A DNA stretch of 64,000 nucleotides, taken from Thermomicrobiales bacterium (GTDB taxonomy: Bacteria > Chloroflexota > Chloroflexia > Thermomicrobiales > UBA6265). The stretch is taken from positions 1 through 64,000 of the forward strand of contig JAGQGU010000004.1 of assembly GCA_020432165.1 (NCBI GenBank), in the 5' to 3' direction. The number at the start of each line of letters is the position of its first letter. The stretch's first letter is position 1. A program made the translations under genes and the position numbers. The notes under the pieces were generated by a model that saw nothing but the letters and a program-made list of their open reading frames with translations, was not told where the DNA came from and did no database searches. Positions 30,058 to 43,324 of the stretch are shown here, piece after piece.

Positions 30058-30822
30058 ATGGTTGTCAGGCATAATCCCATCCCTCTCTATGAGCAGGTGA
30101 AACGATCGATCAAGGCGCAGATCCTTGATGGGCACTTCCCGGCCGGAGAAATGCTCCCGGCTGAACGTGAGCTTTGTGAGCAGTTTGATGTCTCACGGAT
30201 CACTGTCAAGAGAGCCCTGGACGAGTTGGCCGCAGAGAGAACCGTTGTTCGGTTACAGGGCAAGGGCACCATGGTGGTCAATGCCCCGCTCGAAGACAAT
30301 GCGCCGAGGGTGGAAGGTTTCTCCAAGATGTGTCGGAGGTTGGGTGTTGAATCCAACTCCCATGTGCTTGATATCAAGCAGTTTCCCGCTGATGCCCTGG
30401 TCCGAAAGGCTTTTGGGTTGTCAAGTGATGACAACTCGATGTTTATGGGCTTTCGTCGCCTCCTGAGCATACCTTCCGGGCCCGTGGCGCTCGTAACCTC
30501 GATTGTTCCGTTGGCCTTGGGGTTGCAGATGGTTGAGTTGGGAGTAGAAGGAGCATCGTTCTACGATCTCATCTCCCAATGTACTGGTCATCGTCCCGAG
30601 AGAAGTAGCGAAGTTATTAACCCGATCATCCCGTCACCTGATGTCTGTGAGATTCTGGAAATCAATCCGGCTTCTGCACACTTCCATTCCCGAGTGATCA
30701 CATATCTGGAAACGGGACTTCCCATTGAGGTCAGTTTTGGGGTCTATGTAGCGGACAAGATCCAATGGACTGCAGAACGCTATGAGATACGGGAGGAGGT
30801 AATAGCCGATTCAGGTGGTTAG
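30058..30822 (+). CDS. GntR-family transcriptional regulator, HutC/UTRA subfamily
   Basis: The protein has 254 residues. The N-terminal winged helix (about 5-70) contains IPLYEQVKRSIKAQILDGHF, AERELCEQFDVSRITVKRAL and VRLQGKGTMV. The UTRA effector domain (about 90-240) follows and usually binds a phosphorylated sugar or related metabolite. GAGGAG precedes ATG 30058. As first gene of a long plus-strand block of sugar transport and catabolism genes, with a palindrome over its own promoter, it is the likely local repressor. Confidence 0.92.
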   Translation: MVVRHNPIPLYEQVKRSIKAQILDGHFPAGEMLPAERELCEQFDVSRITVKRALDELAAERTVVRLQGKGTMVVNAPLEDNAPRVEGFSKMCRRLGVESNSHVLDIKQFPADALVRKAFGLSSDDNSMFMGFRRLLSIPSGPVALVTSIVPLALGLQMVELGVEGASFYDLISQCTGHRPERSSEVINPIIPSPDVCEILEINPASAHFHSRVITYLETGLPIEVSFGVYVADKIQWTAERYEIREEVIADSGG

Positions 30823-30862
30823 GGGATGTGCAATTTGCACTTGTTCGAGAAAGGAAGCATCT

Positions 30863-32236
30863 ATGGCGCCGAAAACTGCGTACCGCAGGCACCAACCGTT
30901 CGCCATCTTGGGCATTCTCCTGATGCTGTTCAGCGTTGTCGCCCCCGTGGCGGCGCAGGGGAATAGAAACCCGTCTCGTATCGCAATCGCCAACCAGTCC
31001 GGTTTGGTTAATGCTAATCAGGAGCGAGTGACACTCACATTCCTGAAGATCAACGATCCGCTCGAAGCTCAGGCTTTCGAAGAGATTGTTGCGGCATTCC
31101 AGCAGAGTGAGGGCGGCAAGTGGGCATATGTCGACGTGCAATATGACACACGTCCATATTCCGAGCTCTTTACATCGATTGAGACCGCGGTGGCCACTGG
31201 TGCCCCGGTGGACATCATTCAGGCAGATGGTCCTGATGTGCAGCACTTTGCCTGGAACAACGTGCTCATGGATCTCACCGACTACTTCACTCCAGAAGAG
31301 TTGGCGCTGTGGGACGAGGGCTCGATCATGGAAGGCTCGTTCAACGGGCGATTCTTTGGTCCTCCGGAAGCCCAGTCCTGCCAGTTGCTCTGGTACAACC
31401 AGGAAATGGTGGACGCTGCTGGTCTTGACCTCGGTACCGAGGGATTGACCTATGGCGAGAATGGCACCGGTCTGCCGGTTTGGCAGAAGCTCACCGTTGA
31501 CGAAAATGGCGATGGCAACCCGGAAGTGTACGGATTCCAGAATGCTGGTCCGACCTGGTATGACTACCTGAATGCGATTCCGGCCCGAACCAATGGTGTT
31601 CCGGGGGATCCGACATTCCAGGGTGTCAGCGAGGATGGTCTGACCTTCACAGGATATTTCGATACTGACGAGGCGATTGAGGCTTACGCCTTCGATCAGG
31701 CTCTGATCCGGGACTACAAGGTTCGATCCAGCCAGCCGCCTGACAACGCCCTCTTCTCTGGGTTCTCCGCAATGAACGTATCTCAGGACATGATCCTCGG
31801 TACGTTGCACGATCAGTTCCCGGATTTCCAGATGGGTGCGATGAATCCGCCATACTGGCAGACCCCAATGTGCCACACCGGTAGCTGGCACTACGGCATT
31901 GCATCTAACACCGAGCACTTTGACGAGGCACTTGCCTTCATCAAGTTCGCTGCCAGCGATGAAGGTGCTTCCATCATGTGGAAGTACAAGAATCAGATGC
32001 CTGCAAACGTGAATGTCTTCAACTCACTTGAGGAGTTCCAGACAGAACCCCGCAGTCTGATCAAGGACTTCTTTGACGAATACGGTCAGCCGCGCATCAT
32101 GTCGCCTGCCTATACCGAGTACAACGCGCTCTTCTCTGAGTTCTACGGTGCACTGGTGGCGGGTGGTGATCCTGAACAGTTGGCGCATGATTACGCCGAC
32201 CTGATGGATCAGGCCGCTGAGAAGTATCGAGAGTAG
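30863..32236 (+). CDS. Extracellular solute-binding protein of a carbohydrate ABC transporter (family 1)
   Basis: The protein has 457 residues. The Sec signal is a basic start plus AILGILLMLFSVVAPVAAQG. The mature part follows the sugar-binding pattern: VTLTFLKINDPLEAQAFEEI, VDIIQADGPDVQHFAWNNVL, LLWYNQEMVDAAGLD and a C-terminal FIKFAASDEGA segment. No lipobox Cys is evident, so it may be held by an uncleaved signal or be free. The start is ATG 30863 with AAAGGA upstream; upstream in-frame codons overlap gntR. It is followed by two permeases, but no MsmK-type ATPase gene is in the cluster. Confidence 0.9.
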   Translation: MAPKTAYRRHQPFAILGILLMLFSVVAPVAAQGNRNPSRIAIANQSGLVNANQERVTLTFLKINDPLEAQAFEEIVAAFQQSEGGKWAYVDVQYDTRPYSELFTSIETAVATGAPVDIIQADGPDVQHFAWNNVLMDLTDYFTPEELALWDEGSIMEGSFNGRFFGPPEAQSCQLLWYNQEMVDAAGLDLGTEGLTYGENGTGLPVWQKLTVDENGDGNPEVYGFQNAGPTWYDYLNAIPARTNGVPGDPTFQGVSEDGLTFTGYFDTDEAIEAYAFDQALIRDYKVRSSQPPDNALFSGFSAMNVSQDMILGTLHDQFPDFQMGAMNPPYWQTPMCHTGSWHYGIASNTEHFDEALAFIKFAASDEGASIMWKYKNQMPANVNVFNSLEEFQTEPRSLIKDFFDEYGQPRIMSPAYTEYNALFSEFYGALVAGGDPEQLAHDYADLMDQAAEKYRE

Positions 32237-32249
32237 TTCTGGATCTGAG

Positions 32250-32279
32250 CTGGAGCCGGAGGAACTTCTCCGGCTCCAG
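32250..32279 (+). other. Intercistronic stem-loop between binding-protein and permease genes
   Basis: CTGGAGCCGGAG (32250-32261) and CTCCGGCTCCAG (32268-32279) form a perfect 12-bp stem with a 6-base loop and no T-run. In ABC importer operons such hairpins are known to protect the abundant binding-protein mRNA from 3' decay, so a similar role is inferred. Confidence 0.7.
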
Positions 32280-32287
32280 ATACCAGC

Positions 32288-33217
32288 ATGGGATGGAACA
32301 TGGGCACAATGGCACTACAAACCAAGAAGCGTTCAGGTATCAACTGGTACAAGATGCGCATGCATGGAGCTGCTCTTCTATTCGTGCTGCCTGCGCTGAT
32401 CAATTTCGCTGTGTTCCGGTATTACCCGATGATCTGGGCCTTCCGAGCCAGTCTCTGGGACTACAGCCTGCTGGGGGGATTCCGCAAGTTTGTCGGGTTC
32501 GACAACTATGTTCGCGCGCTCACAGAAGACAAATTCTTTTGGCATAGTCTTCGCGTCACCGCGGTATTCGCCATCGGTTATGTGCCGTTGGTGGTTGTCC
32601 TGGCTCTTCTCCTGGCCGTCTTCGCGAGCCAACCCTATCGTGGTATGGGCCTAATCCGCGGATTTATCTTCGTACCGGTTGTTACTTCCTACATTGTTGT
32701 CTCGATTGTCTGGGGCATGGTTCTGAATAAGGATGTTGGTCTTCTCAACGGATTTCTCAGCACTATCGGATTACCTCGCATGGAGTACCTCACCAGTATC
32801 CGCAACGCCTTGCCCACCCTCATCGGCATCTCCGTATGGAAGGATGTCGGTTACAGCATGATCATTCTTGTCGCCGGATTGCGTGGTATTCCTGAAGACT
32901 ATTACGACGCAGCTCATCTGGATGGTGCCAACGCCTGGCGCCGATTCATCGATGTAACGGTACCCATGCTGCGCCGACATTTGATGTTTGTCACCGTTAT
33001 CTCAACGCTGTTCGCGTTCCAGGTCTTTGTTCCGATCTATCAACTTACCCATGGTGGACCAGCTCGAGCGACAAATGTCGCGGTCTACTACATCTATCAG
33101 CGCGCGTTCAAGTTTGGTGAGATGGGGTATGCCAGTGCACTCTCCGTGATCTTGCTTGTCATTTTGATGGTCGTGAGTCTCGGACAAATGCGGCTCATGC
33201 GTGGAGATGATGTGTGA
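32288..33217 (+). CDS. Carbohydrate ABC transporter permease 1 (MalF/UgpA-type)
   Basis: The protein has 309 residues and six membrane spans. The cytoplasmic EAA loop reads EDYYDAAHLDGANAWRRFID, the contact site for the ATPase. The N-terminal span is GAALLFVLPALINFAVF, typical of MalF/UgpA-like permeases. In-frame starts at 32288, 32300 and 32309 are all possible, since no strong RBS is seen. It overlaps the next permease gene by one base. Confidence 0.9.
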   Translation: MGWNMGTMALQTKKRSGINWYKMRMHGAALLFVLPALINFAVFRYYPMIWAFRASLWDYSLLGGFRKFVGFDNYVRALTEDKFFWHSLRVTAVFAIGYVPLVVVLALLLAVFASQPYRGMGLIRGFIFVPVVTSYIVVSIVWGMVLNKDVGLLNGFLSTIGLPRMEYLTSIRNALPTLIGISVWKDVGYSMIILVAGLRGIPEDYYDAAHLDGANAWRRFIDVTVPMLRRHLMFVTVISTLFAFQVFVPIYQLTHGGPARATNVAVYYIYQRAFKFGEMGYASALSVILLVILMVVSLGQMRLMRGDDV

Positions 33218-34173
33218 TGGAATTACCTGCAACTTCGGATTCCCCTGCATCAACGCAGCCGCAGTTCATTGAGTCGCCGCAGACTCAGAATGACAGGCGT
33301 AAACGTCGTATCCGATCTGTTCTCGGGTTCGTTCTGAGGATCGCGATCTATCTGCTCATCACAATCGTCTTTGTGGCGCCCATGTTCTGGGTTCTGGGGA
33401 ACTCAGTCAGATCATCACAATCGATTTGGGGACACGTCTATCCGGTCAGTGTGCTGACGTTCCTGCCACTTGATCAGTTCTCGATAAAGAACTACATGGA
33501 AGCGCTGGGGCTGACATCTGTCGGCAAGGGTCTGGGACTTGATCTGAGTCGAGCGCTGTTCATCAGCTTTGCCAGCGCCATCACCGTCGTTTGCTTCTCA
33601 CTCGTGAGCAACAGCTGCGCCGCGTATTTCTTTGCGCGCCTCGAGTTCCCGAGAAAGAAGATTCTGCTTGCCTTTGTTTTGGCGACGATGATGATCCCGC
33701 AGCAGGTGGTGATTGTTCCGCTCTTCCTGGTGGTGAACCAATTGGGCATCATCAATACATTCTGGGCATTGGTTGTTCCGTGGTTCGCAAGTCCGTTTAT
33801 CACCTTCGCACTCATACAGTTCTTCTCCGAGGTGCCGAAGGAACTTGACGAAGCCGCCACGCTCGATGGAGCGAATCTCTTCAAGATTCTGGTGAACGTG
33901 GTTATTCCAAATTCGATCCCGGGACTCCTGACCGTTTCCCTCCTGGAATTCCAGTTTGTATGGAACGAATTCTACTGGCCGTTGATTGCGGTAACCGCCA
34001 AGGACCTCATGCCTGTTCAGGTCGCGATCGCTTCCCAATTCACAGAGCGTGATCCGGAATGGGGCCGGGTGTTCGCCGCGATGGTTATTGCGTCGGCACC
34101 GGTAATCATCATCTTCATGTCGCTACAGCGGTTCTATTACCAGTCCGCAGTGACATCGGGTGTCAAAGGCTAG
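33217..34173 (+). CDS. Carbohydrate ABC transporter permease 2 (MalG/UgpE-type)
   Basis: The protein has 318 residues. A 30-residue polar N-terminus precedes six membrane spans. The EAA loop is KELDEAATLDGANLFKILVN, with MalG-like FVAPMFWVLGNSVR and VWNEFYWPLI. ATG 33217 overlaps the upstream stop (TGATG). Together with the binding protein it forms an importer of the CUT1 class, which takes up oligosaccharides, glycerol-phosphate or similar. The ATPase must be supplied from elsewhere, as is common for CUT1 systems. Confidence 0.92.
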   Translation: MELPATSDSPASTQPQFIESPQTQNDRRKRRIRSVLGFVLRIAIYLLITIVFVAPMFWVLGNSVRSSQSIWGHVYPVSVLTFLPLDQFSIKNYMEALGLTSVGKGLGLDLSRALFISFASAITVVCFSLVSNSCAAYFFARLEFPRKKILLAFVLATMMIPQQVVIVPLFLVVNQLGIINTFWALVVPWFASPFITFALIQFFSEVPKELDEAATLDGANLFKILVNVVIPNSIPGLLTVSLLEFQFVWNEFYWPLIAVTAKDLMPVQVAIASQFTERDPEWGRVFAAMVIASAPVIIIFMSLQRFYYQSAVTSGVKG

Positions 34174-34202
34174 AACGCGCACAGATATACAGAGGAGGAG
34201 AC

Positions 34203-35018
34203 ATGAGACGTTTCGAGGGCCAGACAGTACTCGTGACTGGTGGCGGCGGTGGCATCGGCAGCGCCACAGTTCAGCGATTTGCTGAAGAAGGTGCCAGGAT
34301 CGCTGTTGCCGATATCGACATAAACAAGGCGCAGATGGTCGTTGATAGCTTGCCCGAATCGGTAGAAGCGATGGCTCTTCAGGTTGATGTGACCGACCCG
34401 GCGGACTGCGAGCGGATGGTGGCAAAGATCCTTGTTCGGTTTGGAGCGTTGCATGTGGTCTTCGCTAACGCCGGGATTAGTCGGACGGGATTGGTGGCCG
34501 ATATCGATCCGGCAGACTGGTCTGCTGTCATCAATATCAATCTGACCGGCGTGTTTCTCACCTGCAAATACAGCATCCCGGCACTGATTGCCGCTGGAGG
34601 AGGTGCAATCGTCACCATGTCATCCTCCATGGCCGGCTGGGACACCTCTCCGGGTGGTGCTGCCTATATGGCCAGCAAGGAAGGCGTCTCCGGGCTTACC
34701 AAGAGCCTGGCACTCCAACTGGGGCGACACGGTATTCGTGCGAATGCGATCTGCCCTGGGATTATCCGCACCCGCCTCAACTTCTCGCCTGATATGAGCG
34801 AGGCCGACTGGCAACGCCGTTACGACGATTTCTCCAAACGAATCCCGACCGGGCGCGTGGGTGAGCCGGAGGATGTGGCTGCTGTGGTCGCGTTCCTGGC
34901 CTCCAACGATGCGAGGCATATATCAGGTTCCACATTGCTGATTGATGGAGGGCAGACACTCCAGAGCTGGAGTAATGCACCCCACACAGAAACATACCCT
35001 TCCGAGGGTCTTTGGTAG
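34203..35018 (+). CDS. Short-chain dehydrogenase/reductase
   Basis: A classical SDR of 271 residues. It has the cofactor loop TGGGGGIG (12-19), an NADH-favouring Asp at the end of beta-2 (VADIDINKAQ), FANAGISRTG, catalytic Ser near 141-142 (TMSSSMAGW), Tyr155 and Lys159 (AAYMASKEG), and a C-terminal SGSTLLIDGGQ. AGAGGAGGAG precedes ATG 34203. In this cluster it probably oxidises or reduces a hydroxyl or carbonyl of the imported sugar; the substrate is unknown. Confidence 0.9.
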   Translation: MRRFEGQTVLVTGGGGGIGSATVQRFAEEGARIAVADIDINKAQMVVDSLPESVEAMALQVDVTDPADCERMVAKILVRFGALHVVFANAGISRTGLVADIDPADWSAVININLTGVFLTCKYSIPALIAAGGGAIVTMSSSMAGWDTSPGGAAYMASKEGVSGLTKSLALQLGRHGIRANAICPGIIRTRLNFSPDMSEADWQRRYDDFSKRIPTGRVGEPEDVAAVVAFLASNDARHISGSTLLIDGGQTLQSWSNAPHTETYPSEGLW

Positions 35019-35051
35019 CGCGTATCTGGAAAGAAAAGGGAAGGTTCACAG

Positions 35052-35855
35052 ATGAGACGATTTGATTCCTTGGGCAAAGAGAAAGCTGTGCTTGGCATGC
35101 TCCACCTGCGTCCGATGCCAGGAACACCTTTCTATGTTGAAGGGTCTTACGAGGAGACGATGCAAATCGCCGTGGAAGACGCTGTTGCATTGGCCGAAGG
35201 GGGTGCGACGGGTTGCCTGGTGCAGACAGTTGACCGCGTTTACACGACCGACAACACGTCGGATCCTGCCAGGATCGCTGCGGTCTCCAATATCGTGCAC
35301 GAGATCGATAAAGCGACACAAGACGGGTTTCAGATCGGCGTACAGCTTATGCGCAACGCGATCAATCCCTCGGTGGCCATCGCCAAGGTCTCCAATGGAA
35401 CCTATGTGCGGTGCGGCGCGATTGTTGGTGCCACGCTGAGCACTCATGGCTGGGTAGAACCCAATCCGCTGGAAGTGATGACCTATCGCCGACAGATCGG
35501 CGCGGAGCATATCAGGATCATCGCCGAGGTCGATTCGATGCACTACAAGTGGTTTGGCGGTGCCGCGGTGGCCGACGTTGCGCGTCAGGCCAAATACGTC
35601 GGTGCAGATGCTGTTTCTCTTGGTGATCCAGACGACGAAGTGACATTGCGCATGATCGCCGATGTGCGGGCGGCCGTTCCGGGAATCCCCATCATCCTCG
35701 CGGGGTACACGAATCACGGAAATGCCGCCAAGATGCTGGCCGCCGCGGATGGGGCATTTGTGGGGACCTGCCTCGAAAAGGGCGGTTGGGCTGGAAGAAT
35801 CGACGTCGAGCGTGTCCGTGAGTACGTGGACATCGTAAATCAGATCGTCAATTAG
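35052..35855 (+). CDS. BtpA/SgcQ family TIM-barrel protein
   Basis: The protein has 267 residues. The N-terminus AVLGMLHLRPMPGTPFY and the blocks IGVQLMRNAINPSVAIAKV, GADAVSLGDPDDE and IPIILAGYTNHGN match the BtpA/SgcQ family (predicted TIM barrel). BtpA was described as a photosystem I biogenesis factor in cyanobacteria and SgcQ lies in the E. coli sgc sugar operon; no enzymatic reaction is firmly known to me. Its place between an SDR and a SIS protein argues for a catabolic enzyme, perhaps an aldolase or epimerase (inference). Confidence 0.82.
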   Translation: MRRFDSLGKEKAVLGMLHLRPMPGTPFYVEGSYEETMQIAVEDAVALAEGGATGCLVQTVDRVYTTDNTSDPARIAAVSNIVHEIDKATQDGFQIGVQLMRNAINPSVAIAKVSNGTYVRCGAIVGATLSTHGWVEPNPLEVMTYRRQIGAEHIRIIAEVDSMHYKWFGGAAVADVARQAKYVGADAVSLGDPDDEVTLRMIADVRAAVPGIPIILAGYTNHGNAAKMLAAADGAFVGTCLEKGGWAGRIDVERVREYVDIVNQIVN

Positions 35856-35893
35856 TCAGCGTTTCAGTTTTTGAAGAGAGGGAGTCTCCGAAA

Positions 35894-36973
35894 ATGCAAC
35901 CAATGCCTGCTTCAGTAATGATTGGTCAGATCGAGGATTATCCGAATATCCTTCGGGATCAGGTTGGGTCCTACGATCAGGCCGCTCGTAAAGTTTTCTC
36001 CACCCTGGAGTACCGGTCCTTTCGACATGTCGTGGTTACTGGAGACGGTGACTCATTCCATGCTGCTCACGCGGTGGAGTTGGCATTCGAAAACATTGCT
36101 GGTGTCGTCTGTGAACCGATGAGTGCACAGCGCTTCCTGAGCTACGGTGCGGACTGGCTGACCGTTCCGGCTCCGCGACATACCCTTGTCATCGGAGTCT
36201 CGGCGTCGGGTGGCACGCAGCGTGTAGTGCAGGCCCTTACCAGGGCAAGGGAGCAGGGAGCTACCACGCTCGCGATCACGTGCACGCCTGGTAGTGCTGT
36301 CACGGAAGCCGCCGAAGCTGCGCTTATCTCCCAGCTATCGGATTTTGGTCCGTCCCCGGGGTTGCGTACCTTTGAAGCCAATCTGATCAACCTCTATTTG
36401 GTGGCTATTCGTATCGGTGAGATTCGCGGTCGTTTCACTCAGGATGAGGCGAACGCGATGCGTGTCGAGTTGTCCCAGCTGAGCGAACCGGCTGCTGCCA
36501 CGATCCAGGCGACGAAAGACCTGGCGAAGTCGGCAGCTGCCACGTTGGGCGATGCTGCACTTATGACGGTGGTCGGTAGTGGTCCAAGCTATGGCACAGC
36601 GCTCTTTTCGGCCGCAAAAATAGTCGAGGCTGCCGGGGTTATGGCGGTTGGTCAGGATCTGGAAGAGTGGGCCCACGTAGAGCGTTTCGCGTATCCGCTC
36701 GATATGCCCACCATCATCATCTCTCCAGACGGTCGATCGCACTGGCGTGCCGTCGATTTGGCGAAGTCGGCAAAGAGCCTCGGTCGACGAGTTGTAGTGG
36801 TGTGCAAGGATGGCGATGCTGAACTCGCCGAATCCGCTGATATGGTCTGGCCGGTTATGGGCGATTGCCGCGAGGAGTTCAGCCCTCTCCTGTACAACAT
36901 TGCCGTGTCGTTCTTCTCGTCCTATCTCGCAGATCACCTGGGACGCATGTTGTTCCAGACCGATCGCCTCTAG
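35894..36973 (+). CDS. Double-SIS-domain sugar isomerase/deglycase-like protein
   Basis: The protein has 359 residues with two SIS domains. The first has VVTGDGDSFHAAHAVELAFE and IGVSASGGTQRVVQALTRAR. The second has VVGSGPSYGTALFSAAKIVE and DLEEWAHVERFAYP, placing Glu/His where GlmS- and FrlB-like enzymes have catalytic residues. There is no glutaminase domain, so it is not GlmS. Related proteins (AgaS, FrlB) deaminate or deglycate phosphorylated amino sugars. This points to an amino- or glycosylamine sugar as cluster substrate (inference). Confidence 0.85.
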   Translation: MQPMPASVMIGQIEDYPNILRDQVGSYDQAARKVFSTLEYRSFRHVVVTGDGDSFHAAHAVELAFENIAGVVCEPMSAQRFLSYGADWLTVPAPRHTLVIGVSASGGTQRVVQALTRAREQGATTLAITCTPGSAVTEAAEAALISQLSDFGPSPGLRTFEANLINLYLVAIRIGEIRGRFTQDEANAMRVELSQLSEPAAATIQATKDLAKSAAATLGDAALMTVVGSGPSYGTALFSAAKIVEAAGVMAVGQDLEEWAHVERFAYPLDMPTIIISPDGRSHWRAVDLAKSAKSLGRRVVVVCKDGDAELAESADMVWPVMGDCREEFSPLLYNIAVSFFSSYLADHLGRMLFQTDRL

Positions 36974-37013
36974 GTTTCTTGAGCTATACCGTCACATCGC
37001 AGGAGATGAGCAA

Positions 37014-37421
37014 ATGTTTTCCCGCATACCAGTGCCTACAGAGAACCGCCAGGAACTGATCAATATCACGGATGAAATACGCAAGATCGTGAAGGATTCG
37101 GGTGTTACGGAGGGTCTCTGCGTGGTGTTCTGTCCGCACAGCACCGCCGGTCTGACAATCAACTCCTACCTGGATCCGATGACGCCGAAGGACATCGTGT
37201 TCGAGATGGATCGGATTGTGCCAACGCGTGTCGACTTTTTTCATGAGTTCGATACGCCTTCGGATGCCTCCGCACATGTGAAGACGAGTCTGATCGGTAT
37301 CGATCAGACACTCATCATCGCAGGCGGAGATATCGTGCTCGGGCGCTCGCAGGGGGTCCTGTTCGCTGAATACGACGGCCCGCGCAGTCGCGAGGTTTTC
37401 GTGAAGGTTATTGCCGGATAA
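37014..37421 (+). CDS. YjbQ family protein (UPF0047)
   Basis: The protein has 135 residues. The signature CPHSTAGLTINSYLDP and the distal HVKTSLIG, plus a GRSQGVLFAEYDGPRSR end, identify the YjbQ/UPF0047 fold, with conserved Cys and His near a metal site. AGGAG lies eight bases before ATG 37014; upstream in-frame codons lie inside the SIS gene. Family members show weak secondary thiamin-phosphate synthase activity, but their real role is not settled. Its presence in a sugar cluster suggests a phospho-metabolite function. Confidence 0.85.
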   Translation: MFSRIPVPTENRQELINITDEIRKIVKDSGVTEGLCVVFCPHSTAGLTINSYLDPMTPKDIVFEMDRIVPTRVDFFHEFDTPSDASAHVKTSLIGIDQTLIIAGGDIVLGRSQGVLFAEYDGPRSREVFVKVIAG

Positions 37422-37493
37422 GCTGATTCGCGATCCGTGGCTGGGCGGATCGTCGCTGATGGCACATGCGGTATCGGGGAGATTCAACACGAT

Positions 37494-38435
37494 ATGGTAG
37501 ACGTTGTTGTTTATGGCAAGGTGATTATCGACAGTTTGAAGATCTCCGATACCGTCATTGTGCGGAACATCATCGGAGGCGGAGGGCCTCAGGCTGCCTT
37601 CGGAGCACGTGTCTGGCACCCATCCGTGGGATTCGCGACACGCGTTGGTTACGATTTCGATGCCGATCTTCGTCACGCACTGGAAGGACTTCCGGTAGAC
37701 CAGCAGGGTGTGACGACCTTCGCTGACTGTGTGACATTGCGCGGTCGCCCGATCTCCTACGACGCAAACGAGTACGCTGTCCCGGCGGAGCCTGACTCTG
37801 AACATGCGATCTATGGTCCAGCTGGATGGAAAGAGCTGCTGAGCCAACCGATATCGCTGCCAGACGACTACCGGCATCCGCGGGCGATTCACCTTGTGAC
37901 CGAATATGCGCATGAAGAGATAGTGCAGGATGCTTTGGCCATGCGCCAAGAGGGGGTCATTTTCTCCCTCGAGCCACTCATCGATCATCGGGGGTTTACC
38001 AACCAGGATGAGATCGTTGAGTTGCTAAAGCATGTTGATCTGGTGACACCGGATTGGCCGTCGGCCAGTGGTATTGCCAAGAGCGACGATCCTGCCAAGG
38101 TGCTGGCCCATTGGTCATCTCTTGGTACACCAGTGGTTGCGATCCGCAACGGGCGCCATGGGTCATATGTTTGGAACTCCTGGACTGATGCAGCCTGGCA
38201 TGTTCCGGCATTGCCCGTAGACGTTGTTGATCCCACTGGAGGAGGCAACGCCTACGGCGGTGGGCTGGTAGCTGGTTGGCTTGAATCGCGTGATGCACTC
38301 AAGGCTGCGGTTTCCGGCACGGTCTCCGCATCGTTGATGATCGAAACAATTGGGGTTCCGGCATGGTCGGACGAGATACCCGCTATCGCACGCCAGCGTC
38401 GTGAAGACGCAATGGCACGCTGCACACGAATGTAG
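37494..38435 (+). CDS. PfkB/ribokinase-like protein lacking the catalytic aspartate
   Basis: The protein has 313 residues from ATG 37494 (GTG 37437 is also in frame but lacks an RBS). VVVYGKVIIDSL and NIIGGGGPQAAFGARVW form the N-terminal PfkB motif. The C-terminal motif, normally DTxGAGD, reads DPTGGGNAYGGG (246-257), so the catalytic base Asp is Asn252 (AAC at 38247-38249). The sugar lid region is short. It may be a non-canonical kinase, a sugar sensor or a degenerate enzyme. The upstream gene ends 16 bp before the GTG, and the next gene begins 6 bp after its stop. Confidence 0.78.
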   Translation: MVDVVVYGKVIIDSLKISDTVIVRNIIGGGGPQAAFGARVWHPSVGFATRVGYDFDADLRHALEGLPVDQQGVTTFADCVTLRGRPISYDANEYAVPAEPDSEHAIYGPAGWKELLSQPISLPDDYRHPRAIHLVTEYAHEEIVQDALAMRQEGVIFSLEPLIDHRGFTNQDEIVELLKHVDLVTPDWPSASGIAKSDDPAKVLAHWSSLGTPVVAIRNGRHGSYVWNSWTDAAWHVPALPVDVVDPTGGGNAYGGGLVAGWLESRDALKAAVSGTVSASLMIETIGVPAWSDEIPAIARQRREDAMARCTRM

Positions 38436-38441
38436 GCGGAA

Positions 38442-39404
38442 ATGGAAACAGAACGATCTGCCACTCCACTTCTATCTGTACGAGGCCTCACGAAAGAGTT
38501 CGGTGCTTTTCGTGCCGTGAACGATCTTGATCTGGATGTCTATCCTGGCGAGATCGTTGGCCTCCTGGGACCAAACGGAGCAGGGAAGTCGACATTGTTG
38601 TCGATGGTATTGGGTCTGCTGGCTCCCACCAGCGGAGAGATATCGCTTTTCGGAGCCACAACCCATCAGGAGAATCGTGAAGCGCGTCGCCGCATGAGCT
38701 ACGTTCCGGAGACGCAGGCCATCTATGACGAAATGATCGCGCTCGAGTATGTCGACTTCTTTCGGGAGATCTACGGCTTGCCGGAGAGCGATGATGATGT
38801 GCTGGATCTCTTCGAACGGCTTGATCTTGAGAAATGGATCAACAGCCGCGTCGCAAACTTTTCCATGGGAATGAAGCGCAGGTTAGGACTTATCCGGGCG
38901 ATTGCAACCGATCCTGACCTGATCGTTTTGGATGAACCTGTGGCCAATCTGGATCCCCGTGGCATCGTCAAGGTTCGCGAGCTATTGCAACAGCAACGTG
39001 ACCTGGGCCGGTCGGTCCTCGTGTCTTCCCACTTGCTTGGGGAGATCGAACTCCTCGCAGATAGAGTGATCGTGATGAGGAACGGCAGTGTGGTGCTGGA
39101 AGGTACGCCTTCTTCCATTAGAGATGGGCAAGTGGTTGGCGGTCGGATCGAGGTCGAGATCGCTGGCGACATCGATCAGGTCATGGTTGCTCTCCGTCGG
39201 CTTCCGTTTGTTGGCGATGTCAGGCGACATAAAGACCTCATCCAGATTGCTGTATCGAGTGGGGATGATCATCGGCAGAAGATCAGCCAATGTATTCACG
39301 ATGAAGGTGCGGTCGTGCTGCAAATGACATCGAGCACGGTGTCTCTGGAAGATATGTTCCTCACAGCAACCGCTGATCATGGATCGAAAGCGAAGACACG
39401 ATGA
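38442..39404 (+). CDS. ABC transporter ATP-binding protein (second transporter)
   Basis: The protein has 320 residues. It has Walker A GPNGAGKST, signature FSMGMKRRLGL (a degenerate LSGGQ), Walker B LIVLDEPVANLD and H-loop VSSHLLGEIE. The C-terminal 85 residues are an extension (IEVEIAGDIDQVMVALRRL and onward) as in NatA/CcmA-type exporters. It starts 6 bp after the PfkB stop, so it belongs to the same operon. Four bases overlap with the permease gene (ATGA). Confidence 0.9.
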   Translation: METERSATPLLSVRGLTKEFGAFRAVNDLDLDVYPGEIVGLLGPNGAGKSTLLSMVLGLLAPTSGEISLFGATTHQENREARRRMSYVPETQAIYDEMIALEYVDFFREIYGLPESDDDVLDLFERLDLEKWINSRVANFSMGMKRRLGLIRAIATDPDLIVLDEPVANLDPRGIVKVRELLQQQRDLGRSVLVSSHLLGEIELLADRVIVMRNGSVVLEGTPSSIRDGQVVGGRIEVEIAGDIDQVMVALRRLPFVGDVRRHKDLIQIAVSSGDDHRQKISQCIHDEGAVVLQMTSSTVSLEDMFLTATADHGSKAKTR

Positions 39405-40270
39405 GCACAGAATTCTCAAACAGTGCATTTCGATCATTCGCTGATCTCGCTATCGGAATGCGACCCATGAAGGCCGTATTTCGGCGCTATACCCGGTTGT
39501 CCAGTCTCCAGATTGGCACGCTAATCGTAGTAGGGATCGTTCTGCTGGCCGCGACGGCTGTGCTGCAGGGGGATCTGGAGTTTCTGGAAAGGAACGCGAT
39601 TCTCGTTACGACCGATCCTTTGCAAACCCCACTGGTCCTCAGTGTCGGCATGATCTCGCTGTTTCTCGGATTGAGCGCCGTCATTGGTGTAACCAGCGAA
39701 GTGGAAAACGGGACATTAGCGGTCCTCCTCTCCGGGCCTGTAACCACCAGCTCATTCCTCGCCGGGATCGTCCTGGGTAGTTTGGTCTTCTACAGTTGGT
39801 CGCTACTACTTGTATTGGGGTGGTCTGTCCTGGCGGCCACAATCATCAATCTCCACATCTCGGCGGCACTGTTGTTGATGATGGCAGCGTCATATGCCGT
39901 TGTTTTTGCAGTGATATCGCTCGGACTCCTGATCAGCGCATGGAGCCAGAAGCGTTGGACGGCGATCCTGGTATACGCGGCGATTGTGCTTCTGGATATT
40001 GCCCTGCGCGTGCTGGACCGATTTATCGGTTCCGTGCCAGTTCAGAGCGAATCGACCCGAAATGATCCCTGGCATTTCTTGCGTAGCGTATCTGGCGTTC
40101 TGGATCGGGCTGTGCAGTGGTTCTCACCCTTTGCCAAGTTTGATGCGATGGCCAGGGCGCTGGAGTTCGCGGACTATCAGCAGTTCTTCCTGCAACTTAT
40201 GGGAACCATCCTTTTTGGAGTGGTTATGTTTTTCCTGGCTTCGTGGCTTCTGAAAGGACAGCGCGCATGA
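39401..40270 (+). CDS. ABC-2 family permease (NosY-like)
   Basis: The protein has 289 residues with a polar N-terminus of about 40 residues and six hydrophobic spans. VTSEVENGTLAVLLSGPVT is the cytoplasmic helix typical of ABC-2/NosY permeases that contact the ATPase. Its ends overlap both neighbours by four bases, so the ATPase, this permease and the following surface protein are translated as one coupled set. The direction of transport is probably export; the substrate is unknown. Confidence 0.85.
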   Translation: MSTEFSNSAFRSFADLAIGMRPMKAVFRRYTRLSSLQIGTLIVVGIVLLAATAVLQGDLEFLERNAILVTTDPLQTPLVLSVGMISLFLGLSAVIGVTSEVENGTLAVLLSGPVTTSSFLAGIVLGSLVFYSWSLLLVLGWSVLAATIINLHISAALLLMMAASYAVVFAVISLGLLISAWSQKRWTAILVYAAIVLLDIALRVLDRFIGSVPVQSESTRNDPWHFLRSVSGVLDRAVQWFSPFAKFDAMARALEFADYQQFFLQLMGTILFGVVMFFLASWLLKGQRA

Positions 40271-41619
40271 TCACCCGTCGAATGGCGCCAGTTATCGCCT
40301 TGCGGTGTCTCTTGACGCTGGGGCTGGTAGCTTCTCTGCTTTCCATGTCAGGCCACCAGGGTGCCCGGGCACAGTATGCCGAGAATCCGGAGGTTGCGAA
40401 TGTATATGGGATTACGTACTTTGATGGTCTGCTCTATGGCTCAACCATGGCACCGCCTTCGGTGGACACCATCTATATTCTGGCGGACCAAACAAGTTTC
40501 CTCAGTTTGCGAGAGACGATCGTTTACTTTTGGCCGCTAACGAATCAGTACCTCGCGGACTGGGATTCCAGAAATGAGCTGCTCGATAGCGTCCTGGAAG
40601 TTGACGGCCCCGGTGGCAAGATGGAGATTCCACTTGCGGATTACGTCATCCAGTACCAGAAAGACGATGCTCGTTCCTCTTTGAGGGTTTACCTGAATGA
40701 CGATGCTCATGCGAAGTACGACGAGTTTGTCTCACTCAGCACGCAGTATCAGGATGCTCTTGCTCAATACAACACCGACCTCGTTGTCTGGCAGCAGGGA
40801 ATGGATACCTATCTGAGATCCACGCCGGAGACAATCGCGGAGCTGCCAACCCCCGAGCCGCCTCCTCAGGAACCTGAGGATCTCGGCACGATGAGTTCTG
40901 ATCTCCAGCGTGGTTTCCCCGTGGCACTCCCCGCCGGTAACTACAAGATACAGGCTCGTGATCCCAATGGAGAGATTATCGAGGGCAGCCAGAAGTCGCT
41001 GGTGGTATTTGAAGAGGGCGAGTTTGCCATCGGGTTCGATATCATTCCCGAGCAACGCTGGACTCGACCCGAGCGATCGAGTGAATCCTCATCTCCTATC
41101 TACACCTCTGCGAACACCACGATCTATGTTCAGCCATTCTGGCAGTCTCGCATGGGGGCGGTATATGACGCCCGGATGCGAAACCCGCAAGATCTGACAG
41201 CATTACCCGGAGAGTCAACGTGGGCACTTCATGAGGCCGCCCTGCCTGATCATCTGGTGGTGGAACAGGATGGCAAAGTCATAGCGGAGGTACCTCTCGA
41301 GTCCTTTGTTGTGCATCAGGTTGCTGGTCCCACGCTGGGATATACCGTGGAGCGATTTGATCCGGTCTCCATGGAAAGCGAATCGTTCCAGGGTTTCGAG
41401 CTGGATGCTGAGCTTATCAGTTCCAACCCGACGATCCGGCTGGTCGATGCTGAGGGAAACACACTCTCTGGCAGTGAGAGAGACCTGCGGTCACTTCATC
41501 CTCAGAACATTGGCTGGCTCTACGCCGGTGCAGCTCTGCCACTTGTGGCGGTAGGACTCGTGGGCGTCTTCCGACTGCGGGGATCGCAGTCGCGGAGTCA
41601 AGAGCTTGAGAAAGAATAG
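40267..41619 (+). CDS. Extracytoplasmic protein with C-terminal membrane anchor, coupled to the ABC exporter
   Basis: The protein has 450 residues and an unrecognised family. The signal peptide is PVIALRCLLTLGLVASLLSM with cleavage near GARAQ. The ectodomain (about 38-415) is beta-rich with a Pro-rich hinge, LPTPEPPPQEPED, near 200. One transmembrane helix closes it (WLYAGAALPLVAVGLVGVF), leaving a short charged tail. The start at 40267 overlaps the permease stop (ATGA). It may be an accessory subunit of the transporter or its surface client. Exclusive coupling to the ABC pair is the main clue. Confidence 0.7.
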   Translation: MITRRMAPVIALRCLLTLGLVASLLSMSGHQGARAQYAENPEVANVYGITYFDGLLYGSTMAPPSVDTIYILADQTSFLSLRETIVYFWPLTNQYLADWDSRNELLDSVLEVDGPGGKMEIPLADYVIQYQKDDARSSLRVYLNDDAHAKYDEFVSLSTQYQDALAQYNTDLVVWQQGMDTYLRSTPETIAELPTPEPPPQEPEDLGTMSSDLQRGFPVALPAGNYKIQARDPNGEIIEGSQKSLVVFEEGEFAIGFDIIPEQRWTRPERSSESSSPIYTSANTTIYVQPFWQSRMGAVYDARMRNPQDLTALPGESTWALHEAALPDHLVVEQDGKVIAEVPLESFVVHQVAGPTLGYTVERFDPVSMESESFQGFELDAELISSNPTIRLVDAEGNTLSGSERDLRSLHPQNIGWLYAGAALPLVAVGLVGVFRLRGSQSRSQELEKE

Positions 41620-41663
41620 TCGACGGTTGAGTTGAATCAGCAAATATCGGTGGAGGGGTTTTG

Positions 41664-42602
41664 ATGGAGCGCGAGCGTGCTGTCGCGATTGGGCAGTGTA
41701 TTTCCATTCTCATTCTGATGTCGCTTGGTACGGTGTTGACCAAGATGTCACTCGGCAACGTGGAACCACTCACCTTCGTAGGGGTTTCGGTTCTGATCGG
41801 TATGATCGCCATGTCGATATACACGTTCATCATTAGAGGTGAACGCATTCCCCGCGGTTTGCCACCCTCGGTCTGGTACTACATGATCGCCATTGGCGTT
41901 GGGAATTTCGCAATTGTACGCGTGTTGAACACCGTCTCACTCGATCTCATGCCGGCATCCACCAATACGTTTCTCACCAACTTCGTGGGATTCGTGACCA
42001 TGGGAATGAGCATCTTTCTCCTGAAAGAGAGTCCGACGCCGTTCCAGATTCTGGGAGCGATCATCGCCGTCATTGGTATTCGCGTCTTCTTTCCGACGCT
42101 GCCAAGCCCAGATGAAATGACCGGTATTATCTTGGTCGGCCTGAGCATCCTTGCGCTGGGGTATACGAATAATATCGCCCGTAAACTGGCGGTAGAGACC
42201 AGGGGAGAGGTGAGCAATAACGTCATCTCCACCGTGGCGTTGCTCGTTGGCGGCTCTATTGCCGTGGTGATCTGCTTCGCGCTGGAATGGCCTCCCAGAA
42301 TCACGACGGGCACCGACTGGATGAATGCCTTTTATGCTGGATTGGTGATGATTGCTCTCGGCCTGACGCTGTGGAATCACATCCTGCGTACACTACGTTC
42401 GTATGAGGCAAGTATTCTTGGGGCGTCGACGGTGATCTGGACAACACTTCTGGCGATTCCCATGCTGGGAGAGCACGTCACCAGCTACCAGGTTGCTGGT
42501 ATGGGCTTGTTGGTCGTTGGTCTGGCCACCGTGCAGATCAGGTCCAACATTTCCCTCGGCTCCCTTCTGGGGCGCAAGGCATCGCGCTCAACGGAGGTGT
42601 GA
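41664..42602 (+). CDS. EamA/DMT-family transporter
   Basis: The protein has 312 residues with ten hydrophobic spans in two EamA repeats (about 5-140 and 150-295). The second repeat ends IPMLGEHVTSYQVAGMGLLV, a typical EamA signature. Such proteins export amino acids or metabolites or act as drug/metabolite exchangers. GGAGGGG precedes ATG 41664. It lies 44 bp after the surface protein gene in the same direction. Confidence 0.88.
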   Translation: MERERAVAIGQCISILILMSLGTVLTKMSLGNVEPLTFVGVSVLIGMIAMSIYTFIIRGERIPRGLPPSVWYYMIAIGVGNFAIVRVLNTVSLDLMPASTNTFLTNFVGFVTMGMSIFLLKESPTPFQILGAIIAVIGIRVFFPTLPSPDEMTGIILVGLSILALGYTNNIARKLAVETRGEVSNNVISTVALLVGGSIAVVICFALEWPPRITTGTDWMNAFYAGLVMIALGLTLWNHILRTLRSYEASILGASTVIWTTLLAIPMLGEHVTSYQVAGMGLLVVGLATVQIRSNISLGSLLGRKASRSTEV

Positions 42603-42646
42603 TGGTAGGCAGCAGGCTGAAGCACCGGAAAGGATTCGTTCTGTAG

Positions 42647-43324
42647 ATGAGAACTGCGGTGACGCCACTCTCCATTGATGCATGGACAGTCATTCTGCTG
42701 GCTGGTCGGCTGACATATAAGCACCTTGCCATCTGGATTCGTATGGTGTTGTGGTGCTTTGTCTTCTCAATACCTATTCTCACCATTCCCCTGGTGAGCG
42801 TGTCCATGTATCGACTCATCGAGACGGTGATCACCGCGGACGACACCTCGGGGATTCGGGTGCGAGACGAACTCCTCCGTGGCGCTTTTCTTCATCCAGG
42901 GCGAGATTTGTCCGCGCTGCTGATAGATATGCTGGCGTTCGGTGTTATTTTGGCGAGCCTGGTTTACTGGTGGACCCGAACACCCATGACGCTTCGCGCA
43001 TTGACAGGAATGTCGCTCAGCTTCCTGGTCCTGTGGTGGGTATCGCAGGTGCTGATTCTGCCCCTTGTCGCCGTCTCGCCTTCCAGAACTCTGGGGAGTC
43101 AATGCGCTCATCTTGGCAGGATGCTGTTGGTTGGCATGAGATTGTTGGTCCCGATCGCCTTTGTCTGCACGATGGCGATCGCGGTCTCGATCTTGCTACT
43201 GGGACCTCTGCTACTTTTCTCCATCCCTTTCGTTGCGATCTGCGGATTGCTCTGTTACTTCCTCTCGAATGGATTGGACCAACGCGGTTTGAAGGCTCTG
43301 TATGCGAGTGCTGATCGATTCTAG
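42647..43324 (+). CDS. Polytopic membrane protein, possibly DUF624/YesL-like
   Basis: The protein has 225 residues with about five membrane spans (22-60, 90-110, 120-140, 160-195, 195-215). The pattern of an N-terminal span, VSMYRLIETVIT, and paired C-terminal spans is reminiscent of DUF624/YesL proteins that accompany sugar ABC transporters, but the resemblance is weak. It is the last gene of the accessory plus-strand block; the nusA promoter follows within 52 bp. Confidence 0.55.
   Translation: MRTAVTPLSIDAWTVILLAGRLTYKHLAIWIRMVLWCFVFSIPILTIPLVSVSMYRLIETVITADDTSGIRVRDELLRGAFLHPGRDLSALLIDMLAFGVILASLVYWWTRTPMTLRALTGMSLSFLVLWWVSQVLILPLVAVSPSRTLGSQCAHLGRMLLVGMRLLVPIAFVCTMAIAVSILLLGPLLLFSIPFVAICGLLCYFLSNGLDQRGLKALYASADRF

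Follow-up and report, generated by a model that had tools for sequence, protein, structure and literature searches.

The locus raises the question of whether a protein of the PfkB/ribokinase family that has Asn in place of its catalytic Asp still acts as a kinase. The window, a stretch of 64,000 nucleotides from a Thermomicrobiales bacterium contig, encodes a 313-aa PfkB-fold protein at 37494..38435 on the forward strand (its translation contains VDVVDPTGGGNAYGGG), with GGGGAG preceding the ATG start. The available sections of PMC5931981 describe the Asp of the GXGD motif as catalytic in the ribokinase family, with the glycines holding the donor phosphates and an NXXE motif binding magnesium, and the role of this Asp as base is also given in the accessible part of PMC10339645. 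The first-pass annotation had read Asn at the catalytic position (DPTGGGN, Asn252), which the translation bears out, as the codon at 38247-38249 is AAC and replaces the GXGD Asp. The protein also departs from the canonical PfkB pattern at the NXXE magnesium motif, where it has D187-W-P-S190, and DPTGGGN differs from RXGRGD, the motif given for PPi-dependent ribokinase-family enzymes in the same sections of PMC5931981.

Membership of the PfkB/ribokinase family is indicated by a match to Pfam PfkB (PF00294; 63.5 bits vs a cut-off of 25.8, spanning residues 138-288 only) and by a ribokinase fold in the AlphaFold model (mean pLDDT 91.1, pTM 0.92; 13 aligned sequences), while no NCBIfam equivalog came near its cut-off for this protein (best, 53.6 vs 300). 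The best PDB fold match of the model was 3kd6, a nucleoside kinase of C. tepidum (Z 33.8, rmsd 2.5, 292 residues), followed by the sulfofructose kinase YihV (Z 28.1), and the predicted fold is of the ribokinase-family type. Within the core, the branch of closest homologues to which the window protein belongs, GGGG 28-31 and Asp13 are invariant; we take these to be the N-terminal di-Gly motif and the substrate Asp. The earlier statement that the rest of the fold is kept holds for the ribokinase fold and fails around the active site, where Glu190 is missing and residues 160 and 218 are not those of the Asp-type sisters. Fold and homology place the protein in the ribokinase family, and two defining catalytic motifs are absent from it.

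That the gene sits inside an intact operon was confirmed: fourteen genes, all on the forward strand, occupy 30058-43324 and are separated by -28 to 72 bases (Table 1), and every one of them was found again in the operon of at least one relative. The stretch from the importer to the ABC ATPase is kept, with variations, in L042, L044, L045, L047, L049, and L050; the SDR gene is present in L042 and L045 and was not found in L044, L047, L049, and L050, the GntR gene was not found in L050, and additional SIS copies occur in L042, L045, and L050. The operon middle (importer, BtpA, SIS, YjbQ, Asn-type PfkB, and ABC ATPase) is common to Chloroflexota and the spirochaete Breznakiella, and BtpA lies near 14 of the 16 core genes. 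The 458-aa protein (40243-41619) adjoins the ABC-2 exporter pair, and most of its eight loci share this operon.

Table 1. Features of the window at and around the Asn-type PfkB gene.
Feature	Position	Strand	Basis or remark
GntR/UTRA regulator, operon's first gene	30058..30822	+	
ABC importer solute-binding protein (SBP_bac_1)	30815..32236	+	true start perhaps further in
ABC importer permease 1 (BPD_transp_1)	32288..33217	+	
ABC importer permease 2 (BPD_transp_1)	33214..34173	+	
SDR oxidoreductase	34203..35018	+	
BtpA/SgcQ family protein	35052..35855	+	predicted TIM barrel
SIS-domain protein, GlmS-isomerase-like	35894..36973	+	Lys242, Glu245, His261 invariant in 13/13 aligned rows
YjbQ/UPF0047	37014..37421	+	
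PfkB-fold protein with Asn at catalytic position	37494..38435	+	translation, Pfam, AlphaFold model, PDB fold match
Lys9 codon	37518..37520	+	within 75-row set, Lys9 confined to 16 core rows
Glu160 codon	37971..37973	+	Glu in 54/75 rows, Asp in other 21
Degenerate NXXE magnesium motif, D187-W-P-S190	38052..38063	+	Glu190 in 0/16 core rows
Arg218 codon	38145..38147	+	Arg in 54/54 Glu160 rows, Lys in 18/18 sisters, Thr in 3/3 outgroup
DPTGGGN motif, residues 246-252	38229..38249	+	Asn in 13/13 core-alignment rows, window included
ABC ATPase	38442..39404	+	kept downstream of Asn-type PfkB
ABC-2 type membrane protein	39401..40270	+	Pfam match below cut-off
458-aa protein	40243..41619	+	matches neither Pfam nor NCBIfam; one of 8 loci in its sequence cluster
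EamA-type transporter	41661..42602	+	kept in operon
225-aa protein	42647..43324	+	no Pfam match; kept in operon

Two of the conserved neighbours bear on the chemistry of the operon. The Lys/Glu/His set of the SIS protein aligns with the GlmS isomerase domain and is kept in all 13 aligned rows; Glu245 and His261 are presumably the catalytic residues. The catalytic residues of FraB, sought in the available part of PMC12051030 as confirmation of the Glu/His role, were not found there. A fold search with the BtpA model returned many phosphate-binding TIM barrels tied at Z 18-20 (among them HPS/PHI 9lj9 at 20.2 and ThiE 1xi3 at 19.9), and the predicted fold has no single closest family and indicates no specific function; there was likewise no sequence match to BtpA in the PDB. 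No other kinase was predicted among the fourteen operon genes, two of which encode proteins with no family match. The window genome (98.3% complete) gave no match to PsuG (PF04227), for which three of 14 control genomes, including E. coli, were positive, and its two nucleoside hydrolase matches are both on other contigs.

Searching the window's own genome together with 100 related ones (101 in all) returned two full-length homologues with 48-50% identity, both DPTGAGN, and more distant homologues (~30% identity) with DTTGAGD. The window sequence used singly as a query of the genome_contigs collection recovered no relatives; an alignment query succeeded. Scanning this collection for the core with two patterns, [IV]YGK[IV]IID and VD[LI]V[TA]PDW, chosen so that the catalytic motif was excluded, yielded 13 loci, 12 of which span the motif while the thirteenth (L052) stops at a contig edge. 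All 12 carry Asn (D[PV]TG[AC]GN; 41-49% identity; codon AAC in seven and AAT in five), and they derive from Chloroflexota MAGs and the complete genome of Breznakiella homolactica; the contigs of two of them (L041 and L048) are those that bear the two 48-50% homologues. The annotation had held that Asp in homologues of the same cluster type would point to a local mutation. The motif-spanning orthologues that lie in this type of operon instead all have Asn. Because Asn occurs in all 12 motif-spanning core homologues, a local mutation is excluded as the source of Asn252, and a sequencing error is ruled out on the same grounds.

As a baseline, 39 PF00294 loci of the window genome and seven others were taken from a longer match list; 11 were not scorable, and the 28 scored for the motif comprised 26 Asp and two Asn, with one Asp call (L072) that falls outside the matched gene and is to be discounted. 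The two Asn genes are the window gene and a core gene of another of the eight genomes. Across 298 genomes of the class of L047, the core alignment matched 17 places at E 1e-40 (15 Asn, two Asp), and an alignment of outer members matched 28 genomes at 1e-50, of which 26 have, by motif, at least one Asn-type place and the other two (G1012 and G1128) only Asp among the places read. Six of 61 genomes in the window's own order matched, three of them (G000, G008, and G030) with an Asn-type gene. A phylum search of 400 genomes, which scored five candidates per genome and gives a lower bound, returned 10 genomes at E 1e-25, in which the window's place was Asn-type and 10 others Asp-type. Among 296 genomes of the Spirochaetota there was a single match at E 1e-40, the genome of L050 itself; two of 177 genomes in the class of G321 matched, at places identical to L054 and L058 (both Asp-type), and none of the 29 in the class of G306. 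No relative was present among the 187 stretches of viral_contigs that fit a pattern. Plasmids gave no match when searched with P0001, and the outer members matched Rhizobium leguminosarum pRL1 (Asn), M. huakuii pMHb (Asp), and Paracoccus pBEN (Asp). A distant PfkB relative, L008:1432-2469, has DTTGAGE, with Glu at the catalytic position.

Residues that vary together with position 252 were examined in a set of 75 PfkB rows, selected from fetched loci only rather than from every place listed, and excluding L016, L026, L085, L062, and duplicate loci. Glu160 and Arg218 are common to 54 rows, which have Asn252 (n = 50) or Asp252 (n = 4) and nothing else; the remaining 21 rows have Asp160, all with Asp252, and either Lys218 (n = 18) or, in the outgroup, Thr218 (n = 3). 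Comparing the 16 core rows with 17 Asp sisters, Arg218 vs Lys and Glu160 vs Asp separate the two in all rows, and position 187 is Asp in 15 of the 16 core rows and Ser in all 17 sisters. Glu190 of the NXXE motif, absent from every core row, is retained in 28 of the 34 other Asn rows and in all four Asp members of the Glu160/Arg218 group. Lys9 and Glu137 are invariant in the core and missing from 14 outer rows, among which Trp207 occurs in one, Tyr225 in one, and Gln33 in three. In the Asn branch the base Asp has been exchanged for Asn alongside changes of Asp160 to Glu, Lys218 to Arg, and, mostly, Thr11 to Ile. Since its residues are so strongly kept, the Asn-type PfkB gene is not a decaying gene.

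A careful tree was built from 49 rows with columns 252 and 190 omitted and with L016, L085, L093, and L062 left out for their long branches (L008 was kept out of all trees). One clade holds all 28 Asn rows and two Asp rows (bootstrap 90, SH-aLRT 85); the window lies within a 16-row core (100/100), and the sister clade consists of 16 Asp rows (92/79). This topology needs three changes at position 252, and a single gain of Asn followed by two reversions to Asp is one such history. A quick tree of the 75 rows needs four changes and has an unsure rooting, with the Asp sisters nested inside the Asn clade, and the direction from Asp to Asn therefore rests on the 49-row tree.

Gene neighbourhoods were tabulated with tblastn seeds at E 1e-10, so that remote members are missed, and many loci are cut off by contig ends. 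A nucleoside hydrolase, PsuG, or uridine-phosphorylase-like gene lies within ~8 kb at 21 of 28 outer Asn loci vs 0 of 15 Asp-sister loci (Fisher p 1.5e-6, uncorrected for relatedness, with some loci near-copies of one another). The 28 loci include L202, which has a stop codon within the PfkB frame, and the 21 do not include L185, where the hydrolase is ~8.2 kb off and closer to another PfkB. A nucleoside hydrolase is also found at three of the four loci of Asp members inside the Asn clade. At the core loci a nucleoside enzyme was seen once in 16 (a pair in L043; nucleoside hydrolase 0/16, PsuG 0/16, uridine-phosphorylase-like 1/16). The names uridine-phosphorylase-like (below the NCBIfam cut-off), hydantoinase-type, and ECF-like (both read from sequence) are provisional. 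Neighbours of the Asp sisters include hydantoinase-type genes (5/15) and BMP-type importers (2/15). The five loci with hydantoinase-type genes are L129-L131, L133, and L134, four of which are also near SIS genes, and such neighbours suggest the breakdown of pyrimidine bases or hydantoins.

According to the available text of PMC9247573, PsuG cleaves pseudouridine 5'-phosphate, the product of the PfkB kinase PsuK. At three loci of one subclade (L195, L197, and L201), PsuG (PF04227) is followed directly by an Asn-type PfkB gene, the two being 5 bases apart or overlapping by 4 bases, and a motif-pattern search of the 14.9-16.9 kb fetched for these loci found no further PfkB. In one supported subclade the order PsuG-nucleoside hydrolase-PfkB occurs with Asn in L119 and with Asp in L128. 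Asp-type sisters are near Asn genes in L121, L122, and L125, further Asp-type PfkB genes occur in L124, L185, and L202, and a ribokinase-like PfkB lies beside L114, L116-L119, L121, and L124.

L122:4746-8957 has three tandem Asn-type PfkB genes, one Asp-type PfkB gene, and two PsuG genes, which may represent Asp/Asn partners. L121:2120-11495 combines a ribokinase-like PfkB, PsuG, two nucleoside hydrolases, SIS, BtpA, an Asp-type and an Asn-type PfkB, and two uridine-phosphorylase-like genes. On R. leguminosarum pRL1, in a record that is unannotated, L114:3276-16601 holds an Asn-type PfkB, a uridine-phosphorylase-like gene, YjbQ, SIS, an importer, a nucleoside hydrolase, a relative of 5-formyltetrahydrofolate cyclo-ligase, and the ribokinase-like PfkB. 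YjbQ/UPF0047 stands beside the Asn-type PfkB in the window (37014-37421), L114, L126, L187, L189-L191, and L198-L200. Overall it was seen beside 16 of 44 Asn loci vs 0 of 15 Asp sisters, and a functional link between this poorly known family and Asn-type PfkB is possible; a connection of YjbQ with thiamin was also considered.

The first-pass annotation had left a choice between a non-phosphorylating binder, a sensor, and a kinase with a different base, none of which is proven. The reading that we prefer, with a probability of about one half, is that the Asn-type PfkB is a remodelled kinase of a catabolic operon that acts without the usual base. It is favoured because of the logic of the operon and the coupling to PsuG in relatives. 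The ABC importer would take up an unphosphorylated sugar or nucleoside-like compound, which the Asn protein would bind together with ATP and phosphorylate with no carboxylate at position 252 to act as base; the phosphorylated product would go to BtpA and the SIS protein for processing. Transfer might proceed through a substrate group of low pKa, through another residue serving as base, or with no base at all. This kinase reading is consistent with the restriction of position 252 to Asn in the 12 core homologues and to Asn or Asp in the 54 Glu160/Arg218 rows, with the three PsuG-coupled loci and the nucleoside enzymes by 21 of 28 outer loci, with the like arrangement of Asp and Asn members in L128 and L119, with the window operon having no other predicted kinase, with the GlmS-aligned Lys/Glu/His of the partner SIS, and with a nucleoside kinase as the nearest fold. 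Against it stand the missing base, the missing magnesium-binding Glu of NXXE in the window's branch (0/16), the other PfkBs near some Asn genes, any of which could be the real kinase, and the origin of all three PsuG-coupled loci from a single subclade. As no PsuG was detected in the window genome and nucleoside enzymes were seen at one of 16 core loci, the nucleoside argument reaches the window's branch only via relatives, and 'nucleoside-like' is for the substrate of this operon a label borrowed from them.

A pseudokinase that binds a nucleoside or sugar, and perhaps ATP, without phosphate transfer, serving as a sensor or as a partner of SIS, BtpA, or another PfkB, is a tentative alternative that we consider less probable than a kinase acting without the usual base. 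It competes seriously with the kinase reading, most of all in the doubly changed branch of the window; the non-phosphorylating binder of the first-pass annotation stays alive because this branch has lost the NXXE Glu along with the base, and its substrate-side motifs (Asp13 and the Gly run) are retained. Possible active partners are at hand where Asp and Asn genes are neighbours (L121, L122, and L125) or where a ribokinase-like PfkB stands beside the core genes L116-L118, but a second PfkB was not seen at 13 of the 16 core loci, several of which are short. The usual substrates of SIS and BtpA-type folds are phosphosugars, which counts against a pseudokinase, as do the retention of Glu190 by 28 of 34 outer Asn proteins and the position of the Asn protein as the sole PfkB seen beside PsuG in three loci. 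A precedent is offered by the plant FLN proteins, PfkB relatives without fructokinase activity in which the Asp is kept, as reported in the portion of PMC9698557 that was available.

The fold might instead have been re-used for a step other than that of a kinase, such as cleavage or transfer of a glycosidic bond, an improbable reading for which we know of no precedent. It would fit core operons that have none of the enzymes of the outer branch apart from the single uridine-phosphorylase-like case, and Lys9 and Glu137 as residues particular to the core; BtpA or SIS could provide such a step, however, and the motif glycines and Arg218 are retained, resembling a phosphate-handling site. For the core branch specifically, which has neither the base Asp nor the magnesium Glu but has Lys9, Glu137, Glu160, and Arg218, it is somewhat easier to entertain, though still unlikely, that the protein does something different from the usual phosphorylation of a hydroxyl; it might act on the glycosidic bond of a nucleoside-like compound or phosphorylate a group that is already ionised, and would provide the cleavage that these operons seem to lack. 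Least probable of all is that the change from Asp to Asn is cheap and the mechanism nothing special. The alternation of Asp and Asn inside one clade (L108 with L100; L007 with L105) speaks for such an ordinary kinase, but a neutral site should show other letters, and Asn is present in 50 of the 54 rows, coupled to the changes at positions 160 and 218.

A literature search, with subscription journals mostly outside its coverage, found no title that refers to an Asn-type clade of PfkB proteins. The GXGD Asp is regarded as catalytic in the PfkB family, one of the large families of small-molecule kinases, and the branch described here may consist of natural working kinases without the usual base or of lookalikes that are no longer kinases; in the window's branch the Pfam name 'pfkB family carbohydrate kinase' may mislead. 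Together with the few Asp members in like operons, the Asn branch forms a natural series for testing the need for the base, its replacement, and the passage from kinase to non-kinase, and the conserved operon places YjbQ and BtpA, two families of poorly understood function, in a definite genomic setting.

Compared with known systems, the window protein is like 3kd6, the C. tepidum PfkB nucleoside kinase with AMP, in fold, at 18% identity, with the difference that 3kd6 has the GXGD Asp. Asn-containing versions of the motif probably also occur in fungal Mak32-like PfkB proteins; no literature on Mak32 together with PfkB was found. The PsuK/PsuG system shares the fold (7vva, Z 26.7), and PsuG is coupled to Asn-type relatives, L195, L197, and L201 having the partner beside the kinase-like gene, whereas the window has PsuG neither in the operon nor in the genome and its protein has Asn for Asp. 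FraD is a PfkB-type kinase, and the window likewise pairs a kinase-like gene with a GlmS-like SIS gene, the adjacent SIS having the GlmS-type Glu and His expected of a kinase and SIS deglycase pair. The FraD/FraB kinase and SIS deglycase activities of fructose-asparagine use have been demonstrated for Salmonella, as stated in the available part of PMC4941530; the window differs in adding BtpA and YjbQ and in having Asn at the base. FLN1 and FLN2 resemble the window protein as PfkB relatives without fructokinase activity, were it to be a pseudokinase, and differ in a motif, G/ASGD, that retains the Asp which the window protein has replaced (PMC9698557, in the sections available). They also differ in belonging to the plastid RNA polymerase complex.
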